Both the position numbers and the translations under genes were made by a program. A stretch of DNA of 64,000 nucleotides from Planctomycetales bacterium 10988 (GTDB lineage Bacteria > Planctomycetota > Planctomycetia > Pirellulales > Pb10988): positions 4,368,709 through 4,432,708 of the forward strand of contig CP043547.1 in NCBI GenBank assembly GCA_009664345.1, given 5' to 3'. The notes below the pieces were generated by a model. It was not told the origin of the DNA. It did no database searches and worked only from the letters and a program-made list of their open reading frames with translations. This document shows, one piece after another, positions 26,492 to 64,000 of this stretch. The first letter of the stretch is position 1. Every line of letters starts with the position of its first letter.

Positions 26492-26717
26492 CAGGGAACG
26501 GATGGTGTTCGGTGTTCGGTGTTCGGTGTTCGACGGGCAGCTTATGCTAAAAAGTGCTTTTTGCTTAATGAAGTAGTCAACATACCCACCTATTTTCAAA
26601 CAATGCAAAAAGTAGTTTTTATATTATAATCGGACATTGATTTTCACCCGCTACCAACGGTTCACCACCAGTTCCGAACACTGAAAACCGAACACCGAAC
26701 ACGATTCATTTCCCTGG
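26492..26717. repeat. MITE-like repeat element, copy E3
   Basis: Opens with CAGGGAACGGATGGTGTTCG, four GGTGTTC units, AAAAAGTGCTTTTTG at 26549-26563, AAAAAGTAGTTTTT at 26607-26620, conserved TTGATTTTCACCCGCT, inverted 7-mers, and a right end CACGATTCATTTCCCTGG. The right end overlaps the last codons and stop of the convergent comEC gene: APGK-stop is encoded inside the terminal repeat. Most similar to E1 in the right arm. Confidence 0.82.
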
Positions 26718-48159: not shown

Positions 48160-49067
48160 GAGCGTGTTTGCGAATTCCCAAAGTTTCCCTTTTTTAAGGA
48201 CACAGACGTTTGAGCATTAAGTGAATCATGCTGATTTGTATCATCGCTTCACTGGTGGAAGGTTCCCGTTCATCATCCTTGCTCAACCGGCGGCTGCGAC
48301 CCAGCCAACCGAAGGTTCGCTCGACGATCCACCGCTTCGGCAACACCTCAAAACCGCCTCGGCCTGACACGCGTTTGACGATTTCCAGTGTCCAGTGGAA
48401 GGTATTTCTCACCCACGCCGGCAGCCCGCTGCGAGCGTAGGCACCGTCCGCGAAAATCACCCGAAGCCGAGGAACGTCTCGCTTCGCTTTTTGCAACACT
48501 AAGCGGGATCCCTCCTGATCCTGAAGGTCCGCCGAATGCACCACGATCGCCAGGACCAAACCCAGCGTATCGACGAGTAAATGTCGTTTTCTCTCGTTGA
48601 TTTTCTTGCCGGCGTCGTACCCACGAGGCCCGCCCGCCTCGGTGGTTTTGACCGATTGACTGTCGAGAATCGCCGCCGAGGGCTTCGCGGATCGCTTCTC
48701 TTTTGTTCGTATTTTCGCTCGAAGTTTACGGTGAATTTTCTCCCACCCGCCGAGATTTCGCCACGCCCAAAACAGGTGGTAAACCGAATTCCAGTTGGGA
48801 AAATCATGCGGCAACAACCGCCACGGACAACCCGCTCGCAGGACGTAGAAAATCGCGTTGACCACTTCGAGGGAATCGAGCTGCCGCTTCGCTCCGACCT
48901 TCGCCGGTGGCGGCAGCAGGGGACGAATCAAACGCCATTGACGATCGCTGAGGTCGGTGTAATCGTGAGGTCGTGACATCGGTGCGGCTCCTTGGTTATG
49001 GTTTTGTGGTGAATTCACAAGGGGTCGTACCGATTTTTTTGTCAAATGTCAATTCGCAAACACGCTC
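48160..49067. mobile_element. IS5-family insertion sequence
   Basis: 908 bp. The terminal inverted repeats are GAGCGTGTTTGCGAATT (48160-48176) and its exact complement AATTCGCAAACACGCTC (49051-49067). The target duplication TAA is found at 48157-48159 and 49068-49070, as expected of TNA-duplicating IS5 groups. It carries one transposase gene on the minus strand. Removing it rejoins a small open reading frame, so it is a recent insertion. Confidence 0.93.
48194..48979 (-). CDS. IS5-family transposase
   Basis: 261 residues from ATG 48979 (MSRPHDYTDLSDRQWRLI). DDE catalytic residues: D106 in ILDSQSVKTTE, D178 in VIFADGAYARSG, E220 in WIVERTFGWLGRSRRL. GPRGYDAGKKINERKRHLLV is the family signature. 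Full length and intact, so the element is probably active. The frame is open 22 codons upstream, but those lie near the left-end region and are not typical. Confidence 0.95.
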   Translation of the reverse strand: MSRPHDYTDLSDRQWRLIRPLLPPPAKVGAKRQLDSLEVVNAIFYVLRAGCPWRLLPHDFPNWNSVYHLFWAWRNLGGWEKIHRKLRAKIRTKEKRSAKPSAAILDSQSVKTTEAGGPRGYDAGKKINERKRHLLVDTLGLVLAIVVHSADLQDQEGSRLVLQKAKRDVPRLRVIFADGAYARSGLPAWVRNTFHWTLEIVKRVSGRGGFEVLPKRWIVERTFGWLGRSRRLSKDDEREPSTSEAMIQISMIHLMLKRLCP

Positions 49068-49319: not shown

Positions 49320-50855
49320 ATGATGCTGGATCGAAATTTTAGAAAATCGTTGGCTTTTCTGACAACGGTTTTACTCTTTACTTTTAGTGGTTCGAGCTTT
49401 AGTCATGCGGCGGAGGAAACAAGCTCCGAGCAGCCCAATATTCTTTGGCTCTATCTGGAAGATGTAAGCGGCTGGTTCGGTTGCTATGGGGATGAGTTGG
49501 CACAAACTCCGGCGATGGATCGATTGGCAGAAAGTGGAATAAAATTTAATCGTTTTTATACACCTGCTGGCGTTTGTTCTGCTACACGTTCCGCAGTCAT
49601 TACCGGAGTCATGCAAACAACGATTGGTGCCCATAATCACCGTAGCTCACGAAGTGAATTTCGTGGGTTGGATTTAAAAGAGTATGATGCCATTTATTTA
49701 CCCGAAGGCATGAAGCCGATTCCACAAATCTTTAAAGAAGCAGGATACTATACCTTTAATGAAGGTGGAGTGAAGGACGACTTTAATTTTGTTTGGAAAC
49801 ATAAAGACCTTTATGATCACTGGGAAAAAAGTTTAAATTTTAAAGGTGCCAAAGATGGAACTGAATGGACAGGGAAAGCGGAAGGGCAACCTTTCTTTGG
49901 ACAAATTCAGATCCAAGGTGGAAAGTTTAAATTAAATAATTGGAAACATCAACGGATTGATCGTAGCATCGTACCGATTCCCCCTTATTATCCTGATATT
50001 CCTTTGGTTCGGGAAGAAATTGGACATCATTACGATTGTTTATATGAAACCGATCTCCAAGTGAAAGCGATTTTAGAAGCTTTACAACGAGACGATTTGT
50101 TAGAAAATACTTACATCTTTTTATTTTCCGATCATGGTTATCGAATGCACCGTCATAAACAATTTTTATATGAAGGTGGAATTCAAATGCCTTTTATTTT
50201 AACCGGGCCAACGATTGATGCGGGGAAGGTTCGAGATGATTTAATAAGTGGAATTGACCTTGGTCCTACTTCTTTAAACTTGGCAGGCATTGAAATCCCT
50301 GACTACTGTGAAGGGGTTGATATACTTGCTAAAAATTATGAACCTCGCGAGTTCATCGTTGCGGCTCGTGATCGTTGCGATCATACAATTGAACAGATGC
50401 GAGCGCTAGTTACAAAGCGTTTTAAATATTTACGCAATGGATTACTTGATCGCCCTTATATGCAACCTCAATATCGAGATGGTCTTGCGGTGACAAAACA
50501 AATTCGCAAGATGGCCCGCGATGGAGAATTAAATAAAGTTCAAATGTTGTTTTATGGAGATCATAAACCGGAAGAAGAACTTTATGATTTAGAGGCCGAT
50601 CCACATGAAATAAATAACCTGGCAGGCGACCCTGCTTACGCGGATGAATTAGAAAAACACCGCGAGTTGCTTGATCAATGGATTGAAGAGACAGGCGACA
50701 AAGGGCAAGAGCCCGAATCCGACGCTGGACTGCTGGCGACGATGAAACGTCGAGGTGGCAATGTTTGTGTCAATCCGGAATACGATCGTGTCCGAGATCA
50801 GTACGAAGCTTGGTTGAAAGAAAATCCCAAAGAATTGAAACGCCAAAATCGTTAA
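49320..50855 (+). CDS. sulfatase
   Basis: 511 residues, with a signal peptide (to about residue 30, SFSHA). The catalytic signature C86-S-A-T-R90 (CxAxR, matured to formylglycine by FGE) lies in AGVCSATRSAVITG. The metal-binding start is NILWLYLEDVSGWFG, and SDHGYRMHRHK carries the second metal/His region. GVDIL and ELYDLEADPHEINNLAGDP match the arylsulfatase C-terminus. Such enzymes remove sulfate from sulfated polysaccharides, and many copies are typical of Planctomycetota. The gene is AT-rich to about 50650, then GC-rich. Its maturation enzyme is not in the window. Confidence 0.92.
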   Translation: MMLDRNFRKSLAFLTTVLLFTFSGSSFSHAAEETSSEQPNILWLYLEDVSGWFGCYGDELAQTPAMDRLAESGIKFNRFYTPAGVCSATRSAVITGVMQTTIGAHNHRSSRSEFRGLDLKEYDAIYLPEGMKPIPQIFKEAGYYTFNEGGVKDDFNFVWKHKDLYDHWEKSLNFKGAKDGTEWTGKAEGQPFFGQIQIQGGKFKLNNWKHQRIDRSIVPIPPYYPDIPLVREEIGHHYDCLYETDLQVKAILEALQRDDLLENTYIFLFSDHGYRMHRHKQFLYEGGIQMPFILTGPTIDAGKVRDDLISGIDLGPTSLNLAGIEIPDYCEGVDILAKNYEPREFIVAARDRCDHTIEQMRALVTKRFKYLRNGLLDRPYMQPQYRDGLAVTKQIRKMARDGELNKVQMLFYGDHKPEEELYDLEADPHEINNLAGDPAYADELEKHRELLDQWIEETGDKGQEPESDAGLLATMKRRGGNVCVNPEYDRVRDQYEAWLKENPKELKRQNR

Positions 50856-50882
50856 GCTGCTGAACCATTCCGTTGATGCATG

Positions 50883-50918
50883 AAGCCTGCTTGGGTCTCC
50901 TCCTGAGCAGGCTTTTTC
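50883..50918 (+). terminator. Rho-independent terminator of the sulfatase gene
   Basis: AAGCCTGCT (50883-50891) pairs with AGCAGGCTT (50906-50914), then TTTCC. It lies about 28 bases after the stop. Confidence 0.85.
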
Positions 50919-51036
50919 CTTTCTTCCTATTTTTTTCACAAAAAATTCTCTTTCTGATCCAGCGAAATGCCTATAATTTGAATGCGTACTCAAAAATAAA
51001 TTTCTCACGCATTCCAAAGATCAGAGGGTGAAAACG

Positions 51037-51789
51037 ATGGATTTTACGGACAAAGTTGTGCTGGTAACTGGAGGAACTTCCGGAATCGGCCAAGAGGTCG
51101 CGCTCAAATTTGCCAAAGCCGGAGCCAAGGTTGTTTTGGCTGGCCGTCGCGAAGAGGAAGGTCAAGCGGTTGTCGACGAAATTGCCTCCGCCGGAGGGGA
51201 AGCCAAGTTCATTCAAACGGATATCACTCAAGAAGACCAAGTGAAACAGCTGGTTGACTCGACAGTGAGTAGCTTCGGACGGTTGGATATTGCGGTCAAT
51301 AATGCCGGGGTTGAAGTCAACGGCCCTGTCACGGATTTTACCGAAGCGGACTATCGTAAGGTCTTTGACATCAATGTCTTGGGAGTCCTTCTAAGCTTGA
51401 AGTACGAAATTCCCGCCATGTTGAAATCGGGCGGCGGTTCGATTGTGAACACGTCGAGTGTCGCTGGGAATACGGGGATGGCAGAGATGTCGCTGTATGT
51501 GGCAAGTAAGTTTGCGGTGGAAGGCATTACCAAATCGGTCGCTTTGGAGCTTGCCGAGAAGTCGATTCGCGTCAATGCCGTGGCACCAGCGGCCATTGTT
51601 ACACCGATGTTGAACCGAATCACCGGCGGGGAAGGGACGGAGATGTATCAACAGTTCGTCGAGATGCACCCTGTAAAACGACTTGGCAAATCCAAGGAAG
51701 TCGCGGCGGCAATCCTGTTCTTGGCTTCGGATGCGGCGTCGTTTTCAACAGGAATTACGCTTCCCGTCGATGGAGGAATGCTGGCATAA
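51037..51789 (+). CDS. SDR-family oxidoreductase
   Basis: 250 residues from ATG 51037, with GAGGGTG about 6 bases upstream. The GTG at 51028 is an alternative. TGGTSGIG NAD(P)-binding motif (11-18), NNAG, catalytic tetrad with S140 (VNTSS), Y154 and K158 in YVASK, and the C-terminal GITLPVDGGM. A classical short-chain dehydrogenase/reductase of the FabG/glucose dehydrogenase group. The substrate is not inferable. A strong terminator follows. Confidence 0.9.
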   Translation: MDFTDKVVLVTGGTSGIGQEVALKFAKAGAKVVLAGRREEEGQAVVDEIASAGGEAKFIQTDITQEDQVKQLVDSTVSSFGRLDIAVNNAGVEVNGPVTDFTEADYRKVFDINVLGVLLSLKYEIPAMLKSGGGSIVNTSSVAGNTGMAEMSLYVASKFAVEGITKSVALELAEKSIRVNAVAPAAIVTPMLNRITGGEGTEMYQQFVEMHPVKRLGKSKEVAAAILFLASDAASFSTGITLPVDGGMLA

Positions 51790-51869
51790 AACTCCTTTTT
51801 CCCCTTGCCCTGGCTGGTTTCTTGCAAAGTACAGGGGTATCGAACTAGTTGCGAAGAATCATCAAACTT

Positions 51870-51929
51870 GGTTTACTGCATGAAGGTGAATTTCCGTATG
51901 GAGGTTCACCTTCATGAGGTAAACCTTTT
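51870..51929 (+). terminator. long hairpin terminator
   Basis: GGTTTAC (51870-51876) and TGAAGGTGAA pair with TTCACCTTCA and GTAAACC (51919-51925), with a small internal loop and TTTT after it. About 80 bases after the SDR stop and 80 before hisB. Confidence 0.82.
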
Positions 51930-52008
51930 GTATTTACACTATCTCCAAGCGTCGTTGTTTCCTCTGACAAACTCCGATCCTTGGCTTTGAAGATAAAGAA
52001 AGTTTCGC

Positions 52009-52599
52009 ATGGCCCGCACGGCTCGCATTGAACGAGAGACTGCCGAAACCCAAATCCGGCTGGAGCTTAATCTAGATGGTTCCGGGAAAAGTACGATTAA
52101 CACCGGGGTCGGTTTTTTAGATCATATGCTGACGTTGTTGGCGAAACATGCCTGTTTTGATTTGATGGTCGAAGCCAAGGGGGATTTAGAAGTCGATCAA
52201 CATCATACGGTCGAAGATACCGGGATCGTCCTCGGTCAAGCGATTCGCGAAGCCCTGGGCGATAAAACCGGCATTCGTCGATATGGACACATGACTTTGC
52301 CGATGGAAGAAACCCTGGCCACCGTGGCGATTGATCTCAGTGGTCGTTATGCCTTTGTGTTCAAGGTCGAGATTCCTTCGCAAAAGATCGGAGATTTCGA
52401 TAGCGAACTGATCGAGGATTTTTGGCAATCGGTCGCGATCAATGTTCTCTGCAACCTCCATGTGTTGGTGCATTATGGACGCAATAGCCACCATATCAGC
52501 GAGGCAATTTTCAAAGCGACCGCTAGGGCCTTGCGAATGGCCATCGAGACCGACCCCCGAATGACGGGCGTTCCGAGTACGAAAGGTACGTTGGGATAA
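52009..52599 (+). CDS. hisB: imidazoleglycerol-phosphate dehydratase
   Basis: 196 residues, the full length of stand-alone HisB. It converts imidazoleglycerol phosphate to imidazoleacetol phosphate in histidine synthesis. Motifs: [16 protein letters not shown] with the Mn-binding His residues, [35 protein letters not shown]. All metal-binding HxxxE clusters are present. Start [16 protein letters not shown] after AAAGAAAG. No other his genes lie nearby, so the pathway is dispersed, as is common in this phylum. Confidence 0.96.
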
Positions 52600-52638
52600 T
52601 TCCAAAGGAAAAGAGTTTTTGACAAAGTTGCCTTCTCT

Positions 52639-52830
52639 CCAGGGAAACGATTCGTGCTCGGTGTTCAGTTTTCGGTGTTCGGTACTTGGGATGAAAGTTT
52701 GCTGATTGGTGAATACTGAAGATCGCTTAATATCCTAAAAGTACTTTTTGAAAAAACAAATATGGAATCAATGTCCTGAACTTCTAAAAACCACTTTTTG
52801 AAAATTCTCGAACACCGAACACGATTCAGT
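52639..52830. repeat. MITE-like repeat element, copy E5 (inverted)
   Basis: Opens with CCAGGGAAACGATTCGTG, the reverse complement of the right end of E1-E3. The arm TTCAGTTTTCGGTGTTCGG and GGTACTTGG match the right arm of E1 in reverse. AAAAGTACTTTTTGA is at 52737-52751 and AAAAACCACTTTTTG at 52786-52800. The far end is CGAACACCGAACACGATTCA. It is shorter and lacks the full 7-mer array, so it is a partly deleted, oppositely oriented copy. Confidence 0.68.
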
Positions 52831-52872
52831 TATTTAGGAATGCCACCCTCTTAAGGAAATCCCTCGCTTCGG

Positions 52873-53994
52873 GTGAAAGAGCCTATGTTTACAGCCTTGA
52901 TTCCAAATCGCCTAATGCGTTTTCGCCGTGCTAGAAGAAACATCGTGCCGGGGGAGATGCCCGGAACGCTACGCCCTAGCCCGGAATCGGAACCAACGAA
53001 GCTGAAGATCGTTCAGTACGATGGCAAAACGCTCAACAGTTGGGATTCGATGGAATTCAGCGAACTGCGGTCTTTATATGAAGACAAGCAGAAGGTTCTG
53101 TGGGTGCATGTGACGGGGCTGGCGGACATTCCTCTCTTGCGGCAATTGGGTGAACTTTTTGATTTGCACCGATTGGCACTCGAAGATTTGCTCAGTGACG
53201 AACAACAATCGAAAGTCGAAGAATACGACGAACATCTTTTTCTTGTGGAAAAGATCATCGCTTTTGAACAAGGGCTGGAGGCGGATCAGTTAGGGCTTTT
53301 TCTAGGACACAATTTTGTCCTGACCTTCTGCGAGCGGAGCCGCGATCGCTTGCAACCGCTTCATGATCGACTCCGGCGAAATCACGGCATTTTGCGAAAC
53401 ATGGGTGCGGACTATTTGGCGTATGCGATTTTGGATTCCGTGATCGATCTTTATTTCCCGGTTTTACAGAAATATGGTGAAACCTTGGACCGGCTTGAAG
53501 ATGAAATGTTCAAGGATCCTTCGCACGATCTGTTGATTGAAGCTTATGAAATTCGCCGCCAGCTTCGTCAAATGCGTCGCTGGATTTGGCCCTCTCGGGA
53601 TGCGATCGGGTCGCTGGTTCGCAAGGGAAATGATTTTTTCTCCGACGAAACCCGGCTTTACTTGCGGGATTGTTACGATCACGCCATTCAGATTATTGGA
53701 CAAATTGATACCCAGCGGGACCTCGCGACCGACCTGCGGGAATTTTATCTCTCTATGGCCAGCAACCGCATGAATGAAGTCATGAAGGTGCTGACCATCA
53801 TTGCCACCATCTTTATCCCCCTTAGCTTCATCACCGGACTTTATGGGATGAACTTCAACCCAGAGATTTCCAATTATAATATGCCAGAACTTCAGTGGCG
53901 TTACGGATACCCATTCGCTCTCAGCATGATGGCTTTGTTGGCGGCTTGTTTGATGGGATTCTTCATTAGCCGGGGCTGGCTCCGCCGCGGATAA
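52873..53994 (+). CDS. corA: CorA-family Mg2+/Co2+ transporter
   Basis: 373 residues. N-terminal cytosolic funnel (KIVQYDGKTLNSWD and later), long stalk helix, and two C-terminal membrane helices with the selectivity motif YGMN in TGLYGMNFNPE between them. Ends with a basic tail (SRGWLRRG). It imports Mg2+ down the membrane potential. GTG 52873 or ATG 52885 may start the protein; neither has a strong Shine-Dalgarno. The gene is alone on the plus strand with repeat E5 upstream. Confidence 0.92.
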   Translation: MKEPMFTALIPNRLMRFRRARRNIVPGEMPGTLRPSPESEPTKLKIVQYDGKTLNSWDSMEFSELRSLYEDKQKVLWVHVTGLADIPLLRQLGELFDLHRLALEDLLSDEQQSKVEEYDEHLFLVEKIIAFEQGLEADQLGLFLGHNFVLTFCERSRDRLQPLHDRLRRNHGILRNMGADYLAYAILDSVIDLYFPVLQKYGETLDRLEDEMFKDPSHDLLIEAYEIRRQLRQMRRWIWPSRDAIGSLVRKGNDFFSDETRLYLRDCYDHAIQIIGQIDTQRDLATDLREFYLSMASNRMNEVMKVLTIIATIFIPLSFITGLYGMNFNPEISNYNMPELQWRYGYPFALSMMALLAACLMGFFISRGWLRRG

Positions 53995-54196
53995 GGGAAT
54001 GTGATCCAAAATCGATTTTATTCGTTCTATGGATAGAGAGACGAATTGATCAAAGTCGTTCCCTGCGATTAGTTTCCTGCTTTTCCTGGAAATTTTCGGC
54101 GCTACGCCATTTTGAGAGTTAGACTATAAGCGAATGCTCTTTCGGGCAGGGAGTCCAGCAGTACGTACATCAAGGAGACCTTAGAGGGGTTAGGTC

Positions 54197-55468
54197 ATGG
54201 GGAAAGGAAGTCGAGCCGACGAGATCGTAATCACTGGGATGGGGGCCGTTAGTCCCTTAGGGATTGGTACGTCCGTGGTGCGAGAAGCTCTATTCCGAGG
54301 GGATTGCGGGCTGCATCCGATCCACACCTTTGACACGACTTCGCTTCCTTATCGTTACGCCGGCGAGGTGACGGACTTTGAGCCGAAAAAATATGTCCGA
54401 CCTCGAAAGAGTATCAAGGTCATGTCGCGGGATGCTCAATTCGCGGTCGCGTCTGCTTGTTTCGCGATGGAACAAGCCCAACTCACCGTCGGCTTGGAAC
54501 CTGGCCAAGTTCACCCCGAACGACTGGGCACGGTGGTCGGGGCCGCTCCAATTCGTCTGCCGCTCGAGCGCTTTGGGCGATGCTATGAACTCTCGATGAA
54601 AGACGGCGTCTTCAATGATATCGAGTGGGCAACTCACGCGATGTCGGAAATCTATCCGCTCTCTTTTCTGAACAACACACCGAATATGTTGGCCTCGCAT
54701 GTCACCATCGCCCTTGATGCCCGCGGCCCCAGCAACACGCTTTATACTGGAGATACTTCCTCACTGCTGGCCATGGGGGAAGCCTGTCGCGTGATTCAAC
54801 GGGGACAAGCCGACGTTGTCCTAAGCGGCGCGGCGAGTTGTCGCCTGATCCCTTACGACTGGATTCATGCTCAACTGACGGAAGAACTTGCCGATCCTTC
54901 ACTTGACCCTCAGCAGGCATCGCGTCCTTTTGATGCACGCCGCACAGGAATTGGTCGTTCCGAGGCCGGAGCCATTTTCGTCTTGGAAACTCGCCGCCAT
55001 GCCGAGGAACGAGGGGCAACCATCCTCGCCTCGATTTTGTCGCATAGTTCTTCCTGGGGAACAGAAGGGGCCGGACTGAAGCGGTCGATTCAATCAACAC
55101 TGAACAAGGCGGAACTCACCGCCGGCGACTTGGGCCACATCCATGCCGATGCCGCCGGGGCCCGCGAAGGCGATCAAATCGAAGCGGAAGTACTTCGATC
55201 GCTTGAAGCAGACGTTCCCGTCTGGGCGATGAAAGGGGCCATGGGGCATACTTACGCCGCAGCAGGGGCAATGGCTACGTTGGGAAGTATCATTGCTTTT
55301 CAAGCCGACAGCGTCCCCCCCACTTTGAATTACCGAGAGCCTGATCCGCAGTGCCCGATTCCCGTCATTCACGAAAAACCCGCAACCGGCCTGCGGCAAA
55401 CCGCGTTGATCTCCAGCCGAACATCGCTTGGTCAAGCAAGTACGCTTCTGATTGCCGGCAATCAATAA
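54197..55468 (+). CDS. ketosynthase-like protein lacking the catalytic Cys and one His
   Basis: 423 residues with the FabF fold: VITGMGAVSPLGIGTSVV, ASACFAMEQAQ, KGAMGHTYAAAGAM, TLNYREPDPQCP. The nucleophile position reads TGDTSS instead of TACAT/S, with Asp186 in place of Cys. The first catalytic His (usually AHGTST) reads ADAAGA (D318). K346 and H351 remain. So normal decarboxylative condensation is unlikely. It resembles chain-length-factor-like or decarboxylating KS partners. GAGGGG precedes ATG. No partner KS or ACP gene is in the window. It converges on terminase gene TerL with a 26-base gap. Confidence 0.85.
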   Translation: MGKGSRADEIVITGMGAVSPLGIGTSVVREALFRGDCGLHPIHTFDTTSLPYRYAGEVTDFEPKKYVRPRKSIKVMSRDAQFAVASACFAMEQAQLTVGLEPGQVHPERLGTVVGAAPIRLPLERFGRCYELSMKDGVFNDIEWATHAMSEIYPLSFLNNTPNMLASHVTIALDARGPSNTLYTGDTSSLLAMGEACRVIQRGQADVVLSGAASCRLIPYDWIHAQLTEELADPSLDPQQASRPFDARRTGIGRSEAGAIFVLETRRHAEERGATILASILSHSSSWGTEGAGLKRSIQSTLNKAELTAGDLGHIHADAAGAREGDQIEAEVLRSLEADVPVWAMKGAMGHTYAAAGAMATLGSIIAFQADSVPPTLNYREPDPQCPIPVIHEKPATGLRQTALISSRTSLGQASTLLIAGNQ

Positions 55469-55482
55469 CGCTCCGTCAATTC

Positions 55483-55498
55483 AAAAAGTGCTTTTTAG
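55483..55498. repeat. AAAAAGTGCTTTTT palindrome at the fabF-like/TerL junction
   Basis: AAAAAGTGCTTTTTAG. It overlaps the TerL stop codon and lies 14 bases after the convergent ketosynthase stop. The same motif recurs at most junctions to 63.4 kb and in the repeat elements. Confidence 0.7.
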
Positions 55499-57114
55499 AT
55501 AAGTGGAAGACGTTCGCATCCCTGCAAGGGATCATGAGGCGGTTCCTCCGATCCCAAGAGATGATGTGCCAGTCGCAAGGCCATTTCTAAGGCATCCGGC
55601 CCATCGTCATGGCTCTGAGGATCGGGAAAATCACGGAGTTGGGAAACAAGCAATCGCATGCCTGGCGTCCGTCGAAATCGCAACTTACGCTGTGCAAGCC
55701 ACGGACTGAGCGTGCGAATGCGTACAATCTTTGGACTTCGATTCTCGATCAAATAGGGGACAAGCGGAATTCCCTCCTCGTGAAAAACTCGTTCGAACTC
55801 GTTGCCAAGCAGTTCTTGATAATGATTACTTTCCACCCCGAACGCTTGCGGCTGAAAACTGCGACAAAGAGCAACGCCATCGGCGATCATCTGCTCCGTC
55901 GGACGACGAGCCAAGTCGGCATCCAGATAGCAAAGGCCATCCTTTCCGATCGCGATCGAGGCATAGGCCGAGTAGTCTCCACGGCGAGAATCTCGCCCTT
56001 TGCTCGGATCGAGCGCGATGACTTTGGTGTGTAGCTCACTTGGGTAAGCGTCAAACCAAAGAGAATCCTCGAAGTAATCTTCCGGCCATTCGCAGGCCTC
56101 CACATCGACGGACACCCCTTGCTTTTCCCTCAAAAAAACGCGATGCCCTTCGTTCTCCCGCATCAGCATCAACGTATAGAGGTCCTCTTCCTCCGGCCAG
56201 AGCAACTCCGCTCCCTCGTGCAAAGCTTCGGCATGTCGCTCGTAAAACAGCCGTGCGTCCGCAGCCGAATCCTCCCGCTTGAGGTCCTGGTAAATCTCCG
56301 CCCACCGCTGCCAAAGGTCCATCCTTGCTGGCCACTGTTCGATCGCGGCAAACTTCCGCGAGGTCCAACCGGCATGCTCCAACAGCCGCATGGCGATTGC
56401 TTCCCGATGCAACGCGGTAGCCACATGGATGACGTTGGACCGCTTCGTACCGGCCTTCAGCAGCGACCCATTGAACCAATCCCAATCTTTTTCGCGTAGT
56501 TTGCTCGAGAAGATGACCTGGTCCGATTGAAGATCATCGCAGATCATCAGACTCGGACGATGGGCTCCTTGCCGCCGTCCCCGCAGCTTTTGCCCACTAC
56601 CGTAAGCTTCCAGGACCGCCCCGTTTTTGAGGATCAACCGCCCAGCCCGCCAAACCGTTCCCCGCCCGCAAGCCTGGGGATAAGACCGAGCCAAGGCCCG
56701 ATTTTCGGTCAGCTCATGCCGGATGTTTTCCAGATGATTACAGGCTTGATCACGCGTTTCGGAGAGAATCCAGATTAGCGGCTCCCTGCCTTCGACCGCG
56801 CATCGTAGCGGAAAGGCAAGGCTGCCGATCGTCGACTTCGCTCCGCCTCGTGGAGCGATCACATTCAACTTTTTCCCGCGATTTTCAAGAAGCAGATCAA
56901 GCTGAGTACCGAACCAACGATGCATCTTCGACGGTGCCTGACACACATGCTGCGGAAGATAGGTCCGTGACCATTCGAGCAGCGGAGGCGATTGATTGGC
57001 AGGATTTGACTGCGTGGCGGATTCGAAGACCTCATGCATGAAGTGGGCAAAGGCTCGAATCCATCGACGTTCCTGAGGACCGTCTACCTGAGAAAAAAAG
57101 AAAGGTCGCTTCAT
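55495..57114 (-). CDS. phage terminase large subunit
   Basis: 539 residues. Walker A APRGGAKST (87-95), Walker B SLMICDDLQ (188-196), then a C-terminal RNase H-like nuclease with IALDPSKGRDSRRGDYSAY (D369) and FGVESNHYQELL and SHDDGPDALEMAL (D503/D507). This is the motor that pumps and cuts DNA during capsid filling. The start ATG lies 9 bases after the TerS stop, so both form a packaging pair. Portal, capsid and tail genes are not adjacent. The only portal in the window is at 6494-7936. Confidence 0.93.
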   Translation of the reverse strand: MKRPFFFSQVDGPQERRWIRAFAHFMHEVFESATQSNPANQSPPLLEWSRTYLPQHVCQAPSKMHRWFGTQLDLLLENRGKKLNVIAPRGGAKSTIGSLAFPLRCAVEGREPLIWILSETRDQACNHLENIRHELTENRALARSYPQACGRGTVWRAGRLILKNGAVLEAYGSGQKLRGRRQGAHRPSLMICDDLQSDQVIFSSKLREKDWDWFNGSLLKAGTKRSNVIHVATALHREAIAMRLLEHAGWTSRKFAAIEQWPARMDLWQRWAEIYQDLKREDSAADARLFYERHAEALHEGAELLWPEEEDLYTLMLMRENEGHRVFLREKQGVSVDVEACEWPEDYFEDSLWFDAYPSELHTKVIALDPSKGRDSRRGDYSAYASIAIGKDGLCYLDADLARRPTEQMIADGVALCRSFQPQAFGVESNHYQELLGNEFERVFHEEGIPLVPYLIENRSPKIVRIRTLSPWLAQRKLRFRRTPGMRLLVSQLRDFPDPQSHDDGPDALEMALRLAHHLLGSEEPPHDPLQGCERLPLI

Positions 57115-57122
57115 CGAGAGAA

Positions 57123-57986
57123 CTACTCGCTATCGTAAAAACTACTTTTTAGATCGTCGTTGGCTTGGGAAGAAACTTGAGTTCCTTCCGAAGAAGGGCT
57201 GTTATCAACAAAGGCACTCACAAGCTCCGCAAGTTTTTTACGAATCAGCTCATGATACTCGGAGGGGATTTCGTGAATGAGGAACTCCATCATCTGACGG
57301 ACGACATCATAGACCCGATCGGTCGAAAGCCTCTCCGGCGATCGCCGGGCAAAGGTCCGCCAGTGAAGTCGTTCCAACAGCCAAGCATTCGCCCGCCAAT
57401 CCTTTGCCGAAAGCTCCAAAAGCTGCTGAAGTGGTTGGGCCGCGTCAAGAACCGATTCTGAATCACCGGCATTCGCGAAAAGGCGATCCTCCTCGGTATC
57501 CTCCGTTTTGAAAGAAGGAGCGGCCTCCGTCACCCGAAGCTCTTCGCCCCATAACTGACCTAACGACAAACGGTGCTGTTCCTCAAGCTGGTCCCCAGTG
57601 ATTCGCAGACCGGCACAAAGGTCCGTCCAACGAACGTTTTCTGTATCCAAACTCTGCAGAGCCGCTGCCAACTTTCCCTGCAAAACCAAGAGTAACCGCG
57701 TTTGATTCCGAATGGCCTGCAGCCGTTGTTGATAAAGAGATTGCTGCTCACGGCGGCATTCATCCAACTCCCATAGGGCAACCCGCGCCCTCCACTGCCA
57801 ACGGCTTGCCGCATCCACCCATGACTGCGGAAGCGTCTTCGCGGCTTGCTTCCCGCTCGCGGCTTGTACCTGCTGATAGACAGCCATCACCGAACGTGGC
57901 AAGTCCGCCGCTAAATAAAGCTGAAATCGGTCGTACCACAGACGCGGCTCACCAGAAAGTCGCAGCCAACAGGGGCGATCATCCAT
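57123..57986 (-). CDS. terminase small subunit-like DNA-binding protein
   Basis: 287 residues from ATG 57986 (frame open to TTG 58001). The start, CWLRLSGEPRLWYDRFQLYL, then PRSVMAVYQQVQAASG and WVDAASRWQWRARVALWELDE, follows the phage small-terminase pattern GESxxAYxxFxxYRD...RWxWxxRAxAWD with a helix-turn-helix. The C-terminal 180 residues are helical. TerS recognises the packaging site on DNA. Ends with coding use of the palindrome (GATCTAAAAAGTAGTTTTTA), 14 bases before the stop. Confidence 0.78.
   Translation of the reverse strand: MDDRPCWLRLSGEPRLWYDRFQLYLAADLPRSVMAVYQQVQAASGKQAAKTLPQSWVDAASRWQWRARVALWELDECRREQQSLYQQRLQAIRNQTRLLLVLQGKLAAALQSLDTENVRWTDLCAGLRITGDQLEEQHRLSLGQLWGEELRVTEAAPSFKTEDTEEDRLFANAGDSESVLDAAQPLQQLLELSAKDWRANAWLLERLHWRTFARRSPERLSTDRVYDVVRQMMEFLIHEIPSEYHELIRKKLAELVSAFVDNSPSSEGTQVSSQANDDLKSSFYDSE
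57137..57152. repeat. AAAAAGTnnTTTTT palindrome inside the TerS 3' end
   Basis: AAAAACTACTTTTTAG on the plus strand, which encodes LKSSFY of TerS on the minus strand. The motif is tolerated inside a coding sequence near the stop. Confidence 0.6.
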
Positions 57987-58013
57987 AACATCGTATCTCA
58001 ATCATTGAATAGC

Positions 58014-58028
58014 AAAAAGTAGTTTTTG
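58014..58028. repeat. AAAAAGTAGTTTTT palindrome before TerS
   Basis: AAAAAGTAGTTTTTG in the 42-base gap between the ABC/GNAT stop and TerS. It precedes the TTG/ATG starts of TerS by about 13-28 bases. Confidence 0.68.
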
Positions 58029-58043
58029 AAAGGAAGGCACAGT

Positions 58044-59099
58044 TCAACCAAGGAACTCCGCGCTGACTAATGGCCGCATCGATTGGACAGTCCCTCGTCC
58101 GGAGCGAGGATCATTCCGCCTGCAAGCCTGCACATCGGTAACTAGCCAATGCACTGAATGCTTCAGATGATGAACCATTCCAGGGTGGCTCGTACTCATT
58201 CGGATGCGTAAGCCTTGACAAAGATACCAGCCGGCAATGCTTTGCAGAAAACGCGAACCGATGCCCAGCCCTTGATAAAGGGGATGAACCACCAGACGGC
58301 TGATCCGTTTGAGTCCTCGTTGACCGATCGCGTGGAGGACCGCCGCAAATGCCACCGGACGTCCCTCCCACGAACCGAGCCAGCAAGTCGCATAAGGGCT
58401 GAGAGTACCGCTTAAATAATGATAGTCAGCAAAGGATTTCCAGAAGGCTTGACGGCAGGGACCGACGTCCAAGTGAATGCTCGGTCGCCGAAGCCGCCTC
58501 CGTTGGAGTTGCCCTGAATCAGCCCGATAGACCCAATCGGGCTCCAGCCACGGCAAGACATCCTCATGGCAAGTAACCGCAATAAACTTACGATTCTCCC
58601 GGCGAATCGTCTTGCTTACGGCTGCTGAAAGAAGTTGGGCGGAATGCCGATCAAGGAGACTTGTAAACTCATCAAATACAAAAAGTGATTTTTGTTTTAG
58701 TAAAGCTTGAGCTAATTCACAACGGAACTGCTCTCCGCCACTTAATACTGAATAAGGCTTTAACCAATGCGGGGGGCTACCAAATCCGACAGCGGTCAGC
58801 ATCTGGGTAATCTTTTGAATCGGAAAATCGGGAAACCCATCAATGACCGCACGATCTGTTGGCCAAGCGATCGGGTGATGAAAATATTCCGCATAGGCCC
58901 GACGTGCCAAAGTTGTCTTCCCCGCCCCCGAAGGCCCGACGATCGCCCCGACATTCCATTCCTCCTCAAGAGAAGGCAACTCCGCCGAGACACGGATTTC
59001 GCTGGAAGAAGTGCCCTCAAGCCCGAACATTCCGACGATCTGTTGAACGCGGAAGCTATCGTACAGAGGGCAATTCGTTACAAAGTCAACACGCGGCAT
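58044..59099 (-). CDS. ABC-type ATPase fused to a GNAT acetyltransferase-like domain
   Basis: 351 residues. ABC domain: GPSGAGKTT (about residues 53-61), LSGGEQFRCELAQALL, FVFDEFTS (Walker B), H-loop VTCHEDV. GNAT-like domain in the C-terminal half: WLGSWEGRPVAFAAVL, RISRLVVHPLYQGLGIGSRF. This matches the COG2401 type of ABC ATPase fused to a predicted acetyltransferase, of uncertain function. Its ATG overlaps the ParB gene by 22 bases, with AGGAAGG upstream. A palindrome motif (AAAAAGTGATTTTTG) lies within the coding part at 58680-58694. The GNAT fold resembles the Mom DNA-modification fold, so DNA modification is possible but unproven. Confidence 0.82.
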   Translation of the reverse strand: MPRVDFVTNCPLYDSFRVQQIVGMFGLEGTSSSEIRVSAELPSLEEEWNVGAIVGPSGAGKTTLARRAYAEYFHHPIAWPTDRAVIDGFPDFPIQKITQMLTAVGFGSPPHWLKPYSVLSGGEQFRCELAQALLKQKSLFVFDEFTSLLDRHSAQLLSAAVSKTIRRENRKFIAVTCHEDVLPWLEPDWVYRADSGQLQRRRLRRPSIHLDVGPCRQAFWKSFADYHYLSGTLSPYATCWLGSWEGRPVAFAAVLHAIGQRGLKRISRLVVHPLYQGLGIGSRFLQSIAGWYLCQGLRIRMSTSHPGMVHHLKHSVHWLVTDVQACRRNDPRSGRGTVQSMRPLVSAEFLG

Positions 59100-59635
59100 C
59101 GATAACCTTCCTGCCTCATTCTCTCATAGATTTCCCGCTGAGCCGCCTCGTCTTCGCACTCCACTAAGACTTGATAGACAGCGGGAACGCTCACCTCAGG
59201 ACAAGACATCTCGGGTAACTGCTCGGTCGAAGAATTGTCCGTAATCAGCTTTTCAAAACTCTCCGCAAAGGCCCGATCCTCTTCCGGCAAACTGGCGATC
59301 AACTCGCTGATGAGCGCTGGATCAGATTCGGCAAGGCCCGTGATCGGATCAAAACTAAGCAATAACTTAGCGGCCTCCGTTTCATCGACATCCAGCAAGA
59401 GCACCGGGATTTCCATCTCTCCCAGCAACTCCGTACGTAGATGGCCATCGATCAAATGCACCCGGCCCTCTTCGTCTTTCCGAGCAAGGACCGCGCCGGC
59501 TATCCCTATTTCTTGCAGCACCTGCTGCATCGCCTGCCGCTGCACAGGAGGATGCCCCCGCCAATTATGGGGATGCGGCATGAGTTGGTTCGCGGGCATT
59601 GTTCGCAATTCGCGGATACGATTTTTCCAAGCCAT
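59078..59635 (-). CDS. ParB/Srx-type phage protein
   Basis: 185 residues from ATG 59635, with GAGG upstream. ParB/Srx N-terminal fold: MPANQLMPHPHNWRGHPPVQ, then GIAGAVLARKDE and the phosphoryl/nuclease box LIDGHLRTELLG. The C-terminal YQVLVECEDEAAQREIYERM and GYRCRVLTL are typical of phage ParB-like proteins. In phage it often partners DNA modification or packaging genes. It is transcribed first in a tightly linked set ParB, ABC/GNAT, TerS, TerL. Confidence 0.83.
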   Translation of the reverse strand: MAWKNRIRELRTMPANQLMPHPHNWRGHPPVQRQAMQQVLQEIGIAGAVLARKDEEGRVHLIDGHLRTELLGEMEIPVLLLDVDETEAAKLLLSFDPITGLAESDPALISELIASLPEEDRAFAESFEKLITDNSSTEQLPEMSCPEVSVPAVYQVLVECEDEAAQREIYERMRQEGYRCRVLTL

Positions 59636-59667
59636 CAAGTCCTCACCGTGAGAAGTGATTCTCTATT

Positions 59668-59683
59668 AAAAAGTACTTTTTGA
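59668..59683. repeat. AAAAAGTACTTTTT perfect palindrome
   Basis: AAAAAGTACTTTTTGA, the only perfect 14-base palindrome in the packaging block. It lies between the ParB start and the stop of the small gene at 59684, one base after the stop. Confidence 0.72.
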
Positions 59684-59875
59684 TTAACAGACTTCTTCCG
59701 TCGTTCCGCCGAAGCGTGCCGTCTGGGTACCGGAAGCGTTGCTATAGTAAATTCCTGAGCAGCGAACGCCAAACTCTTCGTCAAGCTTTCGCGATTCAAG
59801 CGCCGTACGATGCGTTCGAAACGGGCCTTGCAACACTCGGCGATCCCGCTCCTCTTGCCAATAAACCCAAGACAT
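59684..59875 (-). CDS. small hypothetical protein
   Basis: 63 residues from ATG 59875, chosen for the strong AGGAG 7 bases upstream. Sequence MSWVYWQEERDRRVLQGPF then EEFGVRCSGIYYSNASG and a C-terminal TARFGGTTEEVC. No family recognised. Same strand and tight spacing as its neighbours in the packaging block. Confidence 0.7.
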   Translation of the reverse strand: MSWVYWQEERDRRVLQGPFRTHRTALESRKLDEEFGVRCSGIYYSNASGTQTARFGGTTEEVC

Positions 59876-59914
59876 AAGGGGTCTCCTAAAGAAATGATTC
59901 GCAATCAAAGGATG

Positions 59915-60304
59915 TTAACTAACGGTTGAATATACTTCGGTACTATCGACTTCGAATAAGAGCCAGCATGCCTCCGCCGCATAGAACTCCAACCGAAACT
60001 CAATCCGAAACGTCGTATTTCCTCCGGGAAAACAGCTTGCAGGCAAAGACGCGAGGAAATTGTACCCCTCGCTGTCAATCTCCCATCTTGCGTCTTGCTG
60101 CAATTCCTCAAAAAGGATATTGGCTGGAACCAAGGTTCCACTCGCCACCGACTCGGTCGTGTCCTCAAGGTCAAAGACTTGATAGCTCAAGACACTGACG
60201 GCCGCGGGGTCAAGCAGTTCTCCATCCCAACCCAAAGCTCGGGCAAGGAAAGAAACACCGGCTTTTGAATGGATATTGCCGGAGATCGGAAGTGGTTTTT
60301 GCAT
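59915..60304 (-). CDS. hypothetical protein (phage-block)
   Basis: 129 residues, beta-rich and acidic, with IHSKAGVSFLARALGW near the start and FRIEFRLEFYAAEACWLLFE near the end. The length and beta content would suit a small head-tail or tail-completion protein, but that is inference. GAGAAGAG-like Shine-Dalgarno lies about 10 bases before the ATG. No family recognised. Confidence 0.6.
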   Translation of the reverse strand: MQKPLPISGNIHSKAGVSFLARALGWDGELLDPAAVSVLSYQVFDLEDTTESVASGTLVPANILFEELQQDARWEIDSEGYNFLASLPASCFPGGNTTFRIEFRLEFYAAEACWLLFEVDSTEVYSTVS

Positions 60305-60342
60305 CGTTGGAACTCTTCTGGTGAATAAAATTGGTTAAATAC

Positions 60343-60357
60343 AAAAAGTGCTTTTAG
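60343..60357. repeat. AAAAAGTGCTTTT palindrome
   Basis: AAAAAGTGCTTTTAG between the stop of the 60365 gene and the start of the 59915 gene. Slightly shortened right arm. Confidence 0.62.
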
Positions 60358-60364
60358 ACTTCTA

Positions 60365-60631
60365 TTAGTTACTTAATTTCATTTGCTGCCCTGACCATTG
60401 TTCAAAGCGACTTTCATGGTGAGCCAAGCGGGCAACGGTCTCCATTTGCATCTCACGAAGTTTTTGCCGATCGTCTTCCGCTGACCGAAGACTCTCGCAG
60501 AGGTCCGTGAGCTTACTGGCAATCACCGCGAGCTTCGCATGAACTTGAAACATCCAGGGGCCAATCGCTAGGGCAATCGCCACCGCAGGTCCGATCACAA
60601 ATTCCCATTGATTTGAAGTTATATTTTCCAT
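60365..60631 (-). CDS. small membrane protein, holin/XhlA-like candidate
   Basis: 88 residues. One N-terminal membrane helix (EFVIGPAVAIALAIGPWMF), then a coiled coil (ASKLTDLCESLRSAEDDRQKL, cut here) and a polar tail. The layout resembles the haemolysin XhlA/phage-holin-accessory type, but sequence identity is not evident. GAGG lies about 14 bases before the ATG. Confidence 0.6.
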   Translation of the reverse strand: MENITSNQWEFVIGPAVAIALAIGPWMFQVHAKLAVIASKLTDLCESLRSAEDDRQKLREMQMETVARLAHHESRFEQWSGQQMKLSN

Positions 60632-60655
60632 TGTTCTCGCAATACCTCTAAAGTT

Positions 60656-60671
60656 AAAAACCGCTTTTTAG
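60656..60671. repeat. AAAAACCGCTTTTT palindrome variant
   Basis: AAAAACCGCTTTTTAG between the stop of the 60687 gene and the start of the 60365 gene. Confidence 0.62.
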
Positions 60672-60686
60672 ATTAGTAAAAGGATG

Positions 60687-60977
60687 TTAGTTGAGATGAG
60701 GTGAAGACTCGGAGCGCAGAGCAATCCGCTCTCCTCGACGATTGTTGTGGCCGACCGGCAAGCAGACCGCCCAATATCCCAGAGGGTTTCGACATTCCTC
60801 CTGATTAAACCCTTGCTGGAAAGCCTTCGCTTTGGATTGGTTCACAGCCTTGGAATGCGCCGGCAAATAAATTTTCCCTTCAGGTGGAGAAAGGGATGGA
60901 TGCAAAGGCGTCCACCCTCGCGGATACCTTACCAACCAAACCAAAAACTGCTTTTCACTAGTAGCTCGTTTCGACAT
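60687..60977 (-). CDS. hypothetical protein (phage-block)
   Basis: 96 residues from ATG 60977 (frame open to GTG 60992). Basic start (MSKRATSEKQFLVWLVRYPR), proline-rich middle (GWTPLHPSLSPPEGK), and NQEECRNPLGYWAVCLPVGH. No family recognised. No good Shine-Dalgarno is visible; the 60943 and 60999 palindromes flank the start. Confidence 0.55.
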   Translation of the reverse strand: MSKRATSEKQFLVWLVRYPRGWTPLHPSLSPPEGKIYLPAHSKAVNQSKAKAFQQGFNQEECRNPLGYWAVCLPVGHNNRRGERIALRSESSPHLN

Positions 60978-60998
60978 CGAATGATTATCCACACTTAT

Positions 60999-61014
60999 AA
61001 AAATTACTTTTTAC
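60999..61014. repeat. AAAAATTACTTTTT palindrome variant
   Basis: AAAAATTACTTTTTAC, downstream of the stop of the 61031 gene. A related degenerate copy (AAAAACTGCTTTTC) is at 60943-60956 inside the 60687 gene. Confidence 0.6.
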
Positions 61015-61030
61015 TTTCAAGCACACATCG

Positions 61031-61834
61031 TTAGGGTCCAGGTGGAGAGACGAAGTTCGAACTAGGATTCGTCCCGTTATTCGTCGAGGTTTCGCCTGCG
61101 GGTAGATTGGTCGGCCAAATCGCGAGATGAGAAGGGTTGAACAAGACGGTGGGAATGCCCCGCTTTAAGAGGACGAGATCATCCTCCGTCGGGATATGCG
61201 GAAATTCCGTAGGGGTATCGATTGCCTCAAAAGTCGTTATTTTTTGCAGGGGATTGTATTGATTCCAAGCCTCCTCGGGGATAATAAAATCTGGCTGTTC
61301 CGCGGATTCTCTCGGTAAATTGAGTAACTCGGTGGCTAGGAGGATGAGGATTCTTTGCAAGAACTCGCCCATACGCCCGGCAAATTCCTCGGTGATCTCG
61401 TGGGCGATTTCGTTGTTCGTATGCTGCATCGCTTCGGATAACAAGAGCAGCGTTAGATAGTCGTACTCTTTGAGCCAAGGATTCTTGACGCAAAAATAAG
61501 GCACAGGGTGGATCGTGAAAGGCTGCGGAGCAGGGGAAGCATGCCCTGCCCGGAAGAGATCGTCATGAAAACGGACGACCCGACCGGACAAAATATCACG
61601 CCCGCGATAACACAACTTGGCCACCGTCATCAGACAGTCCCGTTGCGGTGGCCGCTCCAGCCTAGCATCGGACATCATCATGACGCCTAAAAGATTTTTC
61701 CCGATCACGTCAACCAGCCGGTGAATCGGGCCGTTGAGCGTGGAGGGATTGTTCCCCCAAGCCGGCACGGCGTAGCCCAATTCCCCGAACGTTCCGTTAT
61801 TCCACCACAAGGGTTCATCACTTCCGAAACTCAT
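61031..61834 (-). CDS. hypothetical protein (phage-block)
   Basis: 267 residues from ATG 61834. AGGAG lies 8 bases before it, and a GTG one codon earlier is possible. Mixed alpha/beta: LVDVIGKNLLGVMMMSDARL, CYRGRDILSGRVVRFHDDLF, LKEYDYLTLLLLSEAMQHTN, ITEEFAGRMGEFLQRILI. No family recognised. The start overlaps the stop of the protease gene (TGATG), which indicates coupling. The abundance of helices and position suggests a structural or regulatory phage protein, but that is inference. Confidence 0.65.
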   Translation of the reverse strand: MSFGSDEPLWWNNGTFGELGYAVPAWGNNPSTLNGPIHRLVDVIGKNLLGVMMMSDARLERPPQRDCLMTVAKLCYRGRDILSGRVVRFHDDLFRAGHASPAPQPFTIHPVPYFCVKNPWLKEYDYLTLLLLSEAMQHTNNEIAHEITEEFAGRMGEFLQRILILLATELLNLPRESAEQPDFIIPEEAWNQYNPLQKITTFEAIDTPTEFPHIPTEDDLVLLKRGIPTVLFNPSHLAIWPTNLPAGETSTNNGTNPSSNFVSPPGP

Positions 61835-63294
61835 CACACTTTCTCCTGAAAACTGCCGGCCAAAATTTGTTCTTTATAAGACTCGACCGCCCTGACCCAA
61901 TCCGCACTGCCGGGATAGTGCTGGACAAGGTCTTTTAGGGCTTGTTGATACGCTTTCAATTCGCGGTTTTTGGTTTCGTACCCTACGTACTCGTGTTGTG
62001 TTCGTACGACCTGCGTTTCTTTCAAAGGCACAGGGGATGACGTCGTTACCGTTTCCTCTGCCTTCTCCATCCTCGGAGGAGCACGCGAGGTCCGCGGCCT
62101 TCGCTGTTCTCGCCATCGATGCTGGATACGTTGGCCAACGGTATCGGCAATGCGACCGGTAATTTTCGCTCCGATCCAACGCGTCAATGGTGGTAGAGAG
62201 CTACCAACTCCGATACCGGATAATGCCGTCAAAAGGAGAAATCCCCAGGGAATTTCAAAGTTTGTCGTTGACTCTAGCTCAATTTCAAGCGGTTGCGTGT
62301 CGCTCCCCTTTTCCTTCTCCGTCAGAGCTGGTGGCTGTGCGGGAAGGGCGGGTTCCAAAGGTTGAGGCTCTGGAGGAGAGGGCATCTGGATAGAGGGAGG
62401 CTGCTCAATCGAAGGGGGAAGCTGATGGCGACCCGACCACGGCAGCCAGCGAGGTTGAGATGGCTTCGGCTGGAGAGGATCGCGGGGAGGACAAATTCCT
62501 GGGCACTGTTGAACGGGAACCAAGGGTTGAAGCTCTCCTACGAGATTGACCGTTGGCCGATTAACTTGAAAAAGATCCAAAAAGCACTCTTTATGTTGAC
62601 TTCCTCTAGAGGATGCTTGCAAAAGACCCGGCGGATTTCCTGCGAATGCGGCATGGATTTCGAGCAAGGACAAGGCTCGACCTGACCGCTGATCAGCGGT
62701 TTGCCAGGCAATCAAGCCGATTATTTTTCCCGTGGTCAACTCAAAGAGCGGGGAGCCGCTTCGCCCCTCAGCGGGCGGCGGAAGAAACTCGATCGCTGCT
62801 CGCAGATTTCGTGTAATATGCCCGGTGAACGCAGTCGGCCAACCTCCATGGGGACAGCCGATCGAATGGAACCCCTGGCCGGGAAGAAGTTGCGAGTCGG
62901 GACTTTCTAAGGGAATAACCGCCGGAGGGAAATCTCGACAAGAAGCATCCGCCAAGTCCAAAATGGCGATGTCTCTTGCTGTGCCGGGTGCATAACTCTT
63001 CCACTCAATCACGGCTGAACGGGCAGGAAGCTGGTGCCCTTCGTACCAAAAAACGACCTTGATTTCACTGCTACCCTCGTCTCCTACCACATGGGCATTC
63101 GTCAGAATTTTGTAAGAAGCTCCCTGCTTTGCAATGACGACTCCCGTTCCTAGATTGATTTCACCGGCAGAATTCGAATGAATACGACAGATCGCATGGT
63201 GAAGTCTTAGCAAGTTGACCGGTTGCCAAATTTCCTCTGCCTTGATTGCGAAAGGAACGATCAATATTAAGAAGAAAGAGAAAGTCGGTCGCAT
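61834..63294 (-). CDS. membrane-anchored trypsin-like serine protease
   Basis: 486 residues from ATG 63294, which begins a signal peptide (MRPTFSFFLILIVPFAIKAE). Trypsin-like domain with His (TNAHVV), Asp (RDIAILDL) and Ser (EGRSGSPLFEL): the full triad. A proline-rich linker follows (PPSIQMPSPPEPQPLEPALP), then one membrane helix (IPWGFLLLTALSGIGVG), and a cytosolic basic tail. So the protease faces the periplasm. The longer frame to TTG 63315 lacks a Shine-Dalgarno. Coupled to the next gene by a 1-base overlap. A periplasmic protease in a packaging gene block is unusual. Confidence 0.82.
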   Translation of the reverse strand: MRPTFSFFLILIVPFAIKAEEIWQPVNLLRLHHAICRIHSNSAGEINLGTGVVIAKQGASYKILTNAHVVGDEGSSEIKVVFWYEGHQLPARSAVIEWKSYAPGTARDIAILDLADASCRDFPPAVIPLESPDSQLLPGQGFHSIGCPHGGWPTAFTGHITRNLRAAIEFLPPPAEGRSGSPLFELTTGKIIGLIAWQTADQRSGRALSLLEIHAAFAGNPPGLLQASSRGSQHKECFLDLFQVNRPTVNLVGELQPLVPVQQCPGICPPRDPLQPKPSQPRWLPWSGRHQLPPSIEQPPSIQMPSPPEPQPLEPALPAQPPALTEKEKGSDTQPLEIELESTTNFEIPWGFLLLTALSGIGVGSSLPPLTRWIGAKITGRIADTVGQRIQHRWREQRRPRTSRAPPRMEKAEETVTTSSPVPLKETQVVRTQHEYVGYETKNRELKAYQQALKDLVQHYPGSADWVRAVESYKEQILAGSFQEKV

Positions 63295-63313
63295 CGTGGT
63301 TTCCAAAAAAATC

Positions 63314-63328
63314 AAAAAGCACTATTTA
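63314..63328. repeat. AAAAAGCACTATTT palindrome variant
   Basis: AAAAAGCACTATTTA between the NlpC-like stop and the protease start, 25 bases from a second copy at 63339-63354. Confidence 0.58.
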
Positions 63329-63338
63329 ACAATAAATC

Positions 63339-63354
63339 AAAAAGTGGTTTTTGA
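63339..63354. repeat. AAAAAGTGGTTTTT palindrome
   Basis: AAAAAGTGGTTTTTGA. Two copies lie back to back here (63314 and 63339), as in the repeat elements. Confidence 0.66.
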
Positions 63355-63372
63355 AGAAGTTTAAAGAATGCC

Positions 63373-63990: not shown

Positions 63991-64000
63991 GGAAGTAGTA

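Follow-up and report, generated by a model that had tools for sequence, protein, structure and literature searches.

What does a FabF-like protein do once the sites of its nucleophilic Cys and of its first catalytic His have both become Asp? The question is raised by a gene of Planctomycetales bacterium 10988 (assembly GCA_009664345.1, contig CP043547.1) that lies in a window of 64,000 nt, positions 4,368,709 to 4,432,708, the whole stretch of DNA that was analyzed. We think it probable, though well short of certain, that the protein is a displaced and duplicated KSbeta-like (chain-length-factor-like) noncondensing subunit that partners a KSalpha encoded elsewhere in the same genome. The gene and the positions discussed below are as follows.

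54197..55468, plus strand: KSbeta-like FabF paralogue of 423 amino acids (Pfam PF00109 and PF02801, FabF alignment, AlphaFold2 model)
54752..54754, plus strand: Asp186, codon GAT, at the site of the FabF nucleophile Cys (TGDTSS; sequence and HMMER alignment to FabF)
55148..55150, plus strand: Asp318, codon GAT, at the site of the first catalytic His (HADAAGA; sequence and HMMER alignment to FabF)
55232..55234, plus strand: Lys346, codon AAA, the conserved active-site Lys (sequence and alignment)
55247..55249, plus strand: His351, codon CAT, at the second catalytic His position (sequence and alignment)
55406..55441, plus strand: region of the FabF GFGG gating loop, which reads LISSRTSLGQAS (alignment)

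The reading frame starts with ATG and has 0 internal stops over its 423 amino acids. Residues were placed by HMMER alignments to two solved FabF enzymes, those of Thermus (1j3n) and E. coli (2gfv), and these bore out the original prediction that Cys had changed to Asp186 and His to Asp318 while Lys346 and His351 were kept. The same alignments ruled out a misplacement of the true Cys and His, since D186 and D318 occupy the catalytic columns. Only Lys346 and His351 are present out of the Cys-His-Lys-His set, and the gate Phe and the GG are missing from the gating-loop region. The fold had also been predicted to be kept, and both halves of the Pfam ketoacyl-synthase pair, the N and the C domain, scored far above their cut-offs. 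An AlphaFold2 model of the single chain, built from an alignment with 17 family members, reached a mean pLDDT of 89.9, and its best structural matches were FabF enzymes (Z of about 57 over ~390 residues). Compared with FabF (KAS II; 1j3n and 2gfv), the protein is alike in its predicted fold and in its 24 to 30% identity across nearly the whole length, but it differs in lacking the Cys, the first His and the gating Phe. No NCBIfam ketosynthase model matched it at cut-off; the best was the fabF model TIGR03150, with 218.4 bits against a cut-off of 493.75. A pseudogene was rejected, in agreement with the earlier reading of an intact gene, because stops and frameshifts are absent and because the protein matches 48 of 51 columns at which 16 other aligned members never vary. 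This number is within the range of those members, and the gene therefore does not have the appearance of decay. A simple scan of 53900-55600 found no sigma-70-like promoter on the plus strand.

The genome, a single contig of 6.65 Mb, contains seven ketosynthase homologues. Four of them carry Cys, with ketosynthases of the FabF type (L004 and L005, the latter being the core FabF) among them. In the other three it is replaced, by Asp in the window gene and by Glu in L002 (39% identity) and L003 (36% identity). Homologues were present in all 57 genomes searched within the same order, our own included. A set of 89 matches was reduced to 78 after removal of duplicates. A search of genome contigs with the window protein alone returned only six distant ketosynthases, and those that were read all had Cys. 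Among 134 ketosynthase rows, counted with L106 and L107 omitted as second copies of loci already included, the nucleophile column held Glu in 62, Cys in 41, Asp in 26, Asn in 3 and Ser in 2. Since an acid occupies this column in 88 of the 134 rows, the loss of Cys is a trait of the family that goes beyond chance, and Asp and Glu replaced each other at least 12 times on the tree. The commonest quartets were C-H-K-H (40 rows) and E-H-K-N (36 rows), the latter being the most frequent one without Cys and also lacking the second His; the window protein retains His351, where most Cys-less relatives have Asn. The quartet D-D-K-H was found in the window protein only (1 of 134 rows), and Asp at the first-His column, seen in 2 of the 134 rows with the window protein included, is close to private to this gene. 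Asp was associated with the second His, and Glu with Asn, at a Fisher P value of 0.0002 over 80 rows, but seven independent pairs on well-supported branches gave no support (2.3 the same way and 1.5 the opposite way). Thus, we rejected coevolution and treated the association as shared ancestry.

The change from Cys to an acid was known before this work. Rattray et al. (2009) describe two FabF paralogues of Rhodopirellula baltica without Cys163, NP_865682 (Asp163) and NP_866153 (Glu163) (PMC2649909), which makes the residue change in our protein less surprising. These paralogues resemble it in being planctomycete FabF homologues with an acid at the nucleophile, and the quartet of NP_866153, E-H-K-N, is the commonest Cys-less quartet among our 134 rows. 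The quartet of the window protein does not appear in Table 2 of that paper (PMC2649909). A different substrate and function were proposed there for the acid-site paralogues, and no KSalpha/KSbeta pair (PMC2649909). Cys-less paralogues of this kind have been on record since 2009 with no function assigned to them.

In a tree of 85 rows, the Cys-less sequences formed one clade of 68 rows (support 100/99), which consisted of subfamily B (14 rows) and subfamily A (54 rows). The latter included A1, which is widespread (40 rows), and A2, which is patchy in its distribution (13 rows, 100/99) and in which the window gene is found with L010 and L072 as its nearest rows. The branch of the window protein (1.22) is among the longest in this tree, and because of this branch and the unique quartet the protein may have drifted to another role. 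A second tree, of 74 rows, placed the KSalpha genes together and most of the paired Cys-less genes next to A and B. Three sets branched near the split: the G111 gene with Asp, the genes of family f51 with Asn or Ser, and the upstream-position Cys genes of family f34. This tree carries SH-aLRT support only and a midpoint root that is weak (79%), which leaves the order of events unsettled, and it omits L106, L107, L111 and L113-L116, mostly near-duplicates, of which L107 has Ser at the nucleophile.

Three roles had originally been proposed for the protein: a chain-length-factor (CLF)-like partner, a decarboxylase or a nonenzymatic regulator. The first is favored because, in deeper planctomycete lineages, homologues immediately precede a canonical ketosynthase gene and the complete clusters also include genes for ACP and dehydratases, and because a canonical partner cluster occurs elsewhere in our own genome; a regulatory role is still conceivable. 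When 199 genomes of the phylum were searched, paired ketosynthase genes turned up with tens to hundreds of bases between them. In the nine pairs that were read from deeper planctomycete lineages, a Cys-less gene lay directly upstream of a canonical C-H-K-H ketosynthase, and its nucleophile position held Glu in seven, Asp in G111 and Asn in G087. The four pairs of family f34 had Cys in both genes, and a B-type gene with Glu adjoined the core FabF in two genomes of the window's class. The complete order FabZ-(FabG)-ACP-FabZ-KSbeta-KSalpha was found at three loci (L135, L139 and L146). The canonical ketosynthase that the original prediction suggested looking for in our own genome is indeed present, in a cluster (L045, G000:C1:2794224-2797644) with the order FabZ-ACP-FabZ-KSalpha and no KSbeta in the slot.

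G000:C1:2794227-2795510: KSalpha of the own genome

Pfam runs on members of L045, L139 and L135 confirmed the ACP and the FabA/FabZ-like domains. We measured the gap from the second FabZ to KSalpha, testing 32 loci. It was 1315 to 1442 bp at five deeper loci with KSbeta (L135, L138, L139, L141 and L146) and 1 to 252 bp at 22 of the 23 loci from the order and class to which the window belongs, including 171 bp in our own genome; the FabZ/ACP search gave no match at the 23rd class locus (L176) or at four deeper loci that hold a ketosynthase pair. The extra length at the deeper loci is the size of KSbeta. An orthologue of KSalpha was present in 54 of the 57 genomes of the order, and our own genome combines the empty slot with three scattered acidic paralogues. 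The gap sizes and the empty slot are most simply explained if, in the window's class, KSbeta moved out of the operon and was duplicated.

Two side observations concern these clusters. The ACP of the KSalpha cluster (L045 10989-11378, minus strand) is long, 129 amino acids, with AESIDFLD around the attachment Ser, and it matches solved ACPs only over its first ~80 residues. Family f18 has another KSalpha, a diverged copy (59 to 61% identical) at a distance of 7 to 9 kb from KSbeta (L155 6738-8078 and 16497-17840; L156 10518-12026 and 2087-3433), and the genes in between look, by eye, gyrase-like and UDP-sugar dehydrogenase-like.

The mechanism that we propose would run as follows. The ancestral operon would have been FabZ-(FabG)-ACP-FabZ-KSbeta-KSalpha, which deeper planctomycete lineages still have whole; KSbeta would have departed from it in the window's class and been duplicated into A1, A2 and B, with the window gene as an A2 copy. 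Without the Cys the protein should form no acyl-enzyme, and without the first His the usual decarboxylation of malonyl-ACP is not expected. It would be the noncondensing half of a heteromeric enzyme that elongates acyl-ACP, shaping the pocket and the chain length of a Cys-His-Lys-His KSalpha (or FabF), while the carboxylate of Asp186 would presumably fill the old active site. The two proteins would have to pair physically, and the KSalpha of the emptied cluster is the putative partner; this choice is ambiguous because subfamily B is found near the core FabF instead.

The surroundings of other family members point to lipid synthesis. Subfamily A genes were near a fatty acid desaturase at 17 loci, spread over 10 of the order's 20 families, and had a desaturase neighbor more frequently than any KSalpha neighbor; five A2 loci were near another kind of desaturase. 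A GNAT-type gene recurred at 10 loci, the desaturase and GNAT types having been assigned by a Pfam run on one member each. The GNAT and epimerase neighbors might conceivably hint at a link to bacterial ceramide genes. B genes were near the core FabF, with ACP, FabG and FabD also present at L060. That the product of the window protein and its partner is a lipid we infer from such neighbors. It is a further but doubtful possibility that the acid-site KSbetas are separate swappable subunits (A1, A2 and B), each of which would steer a single KSalpha, or else the core FabF, toward different acyl products, some of them passed on to an adjacent desaturase. The window gene would then be a swappable specificity subunit of a phylum-wide planctomycete lipid synthase, and interchangeable subunits would make this a type II synthase with its specificity half scattered through the genome. 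Such a synthase would be relevant to the making of unusual lipids in planctomycetes, including ladderanes. The three FA_desaturase genes found in our own genome all lie away from the window gene and from L002, and a desaturase link for the window gene itself was thus rejected. Separately, the Cys ketosynthase L007 adjoins a fatty acid desaturase in this genome (G000:C1:5480507-5482294).

Several known systems can be set beside this one. The CLFs of type II polyketide synthases (actinorhodin 1tqy_B and ishigamide 6kxd/6kxf) are likewise ketosynthase homologues without the nucleophile, and the deeper relatives of the window gene likewise adjoin KSalpha and ACP. However, the planctomycete KSbeta lies upstream of KSalpha and is dispersed in the window's order, and CLF structures matched the window protein more weakly than FabF did. 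CLFs of the actinorhodin type have Gln at the former nucleophile; the window protein has Asp186 there, and Gln was absent from this column in all 134 rows. A closer parallel is PDB 9s5h/9s5i, which contains two ketosynthase proteins in eight chains each. One of the two lacks Cys, and its chain C (9s5h) was the second-best phmmer match of the window protein in the PDB. Chain C has the residues of the anammox protein Kuste3606 at six of the positions in Table 2 of Rattray 2009 (PMC2649909), which suggests, with the identity read from residues, that 9s5h/9s5i is a solved KS/KSbeta-like complex from a planctomycete. Kuste3606/chain C shares with the window protein the FabF fold, the missing Cys and a family cluster of FabZ, ACP and FabF genes, but it differs in having Val at the nucleophile and Asn and Glu at the His positions. 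According to a 2016 heterologous-expression study, which lists noncanonical FabF genes in ladderane clusters, the Kuste3606 cluster also holds one gene of the SAM radical type and another that resembles phytoene desaturase (PMC4790861). In the open-access literature, as far as its accessible text goes, we found the 2009 change of Cys to Asp or Glu but neither a proposal of KSalpha/KSbeta pairing for planctomycete acid-site paralogues nor a phylum-wide KSbeta-KSalpha operon with an emptied slot. One paper counts Planctomycetes among the phyla with KS-CLF clusters and, in its accessible part, gives no detail on the planctomycete case, so some overlap is possible (PMC10132072). The gene order recasts a strange FabF as a testable candidate for the displaced KSbeta of a phylum-wide KSalpha/KSbeta system with an unusual ACP.

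Other explanations have to be weighed against a displaced KSbeta. The protein could be a free-standing homodimer with new chemistry, its carboxylate acting as a base or acid on acyl-ACP in hydrolysis, isomerization or presentation of the acyl chain to a desaturase. The strong conservation of the carboxylate, which alternates between Asp and Glu and shows no decay, is in its favor; most subfamily A genes lie away from any KSalpha, and both kinds of desaturase neighbor would suit such an enzyme. We nevertheless consider it unlikely, as the deeper relatives are encoded in pairs with KSalpha and the columns of both His residues vary, unlike those of a conserved new active site. Still less probable is a duplicate specific to the lineage, under relaxed constraint and now of little or no use to the cell. 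The window gene is the third Cys-less copy in its genome, with L002 and L003, and the long branch, the unique quartet and the patchy A2 distribution also favor this reading, but the intact frame, the retained invariant columns and the high-confidence predicted fold speak against it.

Enzymatic roles closer to known ketosynthases fare worse. In favor of a KSQ-type decarboxylase, which makes an acetyl starter from malonyl-ACP, are the replaced Cys and the retained Lys and second His. Both His residues are reported as indispensable for decarboxylation in FabF by Rattray 2009 (PMC2649909), whereas the first is Asp318 here and the second has been replaced in most family members, the commonest Cys-less quartet (E-H-K-N, 36 of 134) being without it. 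For these reasons the decarboxylase of the original prediction is disfavored and seems very improbable to us. Least credible of all is an ordinary condensing FabF with Asp as its nucleophile; the fold, Lys and second His are there, but the thiol, the first His and the gating Phe are not, the fabF score is far under its cut-off, and the genome already has FabF-type Cys ketosynthases (L004 and L005).

CorA, HisB and a phage-like region surround the window gene itself, with no adjoining KSalpha or ACP. Two features of possible mobile DNA lie on the minus strand.

55495-59638, minus strand: phage-like genes, which begin 26 bp past the stop codon of the window gene
48194-49045, minus strand: IS5-type transposase-like open reading frame (by eye), with a related frame in L059

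The phage-like region encodes large and small terminase subunits, an ABC-ATPase/acetyltransferase protein and a ParB-like protein; no integrase was seen among the eight proteins that were scanned, and no tRNA in 50000-64000 of the window. The 3' end of the ketosynthase gene had no long second copy in the genome, its matches being 17 to 31 bp long and nearly all to a dispersed repeat. The idea that the gene is prophage cargo was set aside, also because its clade is present across the order. The closest relative, L010 (G044; L099 7358-8425, minus strand), adjoins an apparent mobile element, with an integrase-like open reading frame and plasmid- or phage-like genes beside it (by eye).

A short repeat was also observed at the end of the window gene.

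55483-55496 (plus strand) and 26549-26562: 14-mer AAAAAGTGCTTTTT

This 14-mer has 89 copies in the genome (48 forward and 41 reverse), compared with 0 for a backward control, and within the window it gave 14 matches at no more than one mismatch, against 0.07 expected. Copies are located just past the stop codon of the window gene and about 90 bp past L002, and the repeat is possibly a terminator or a binding site.
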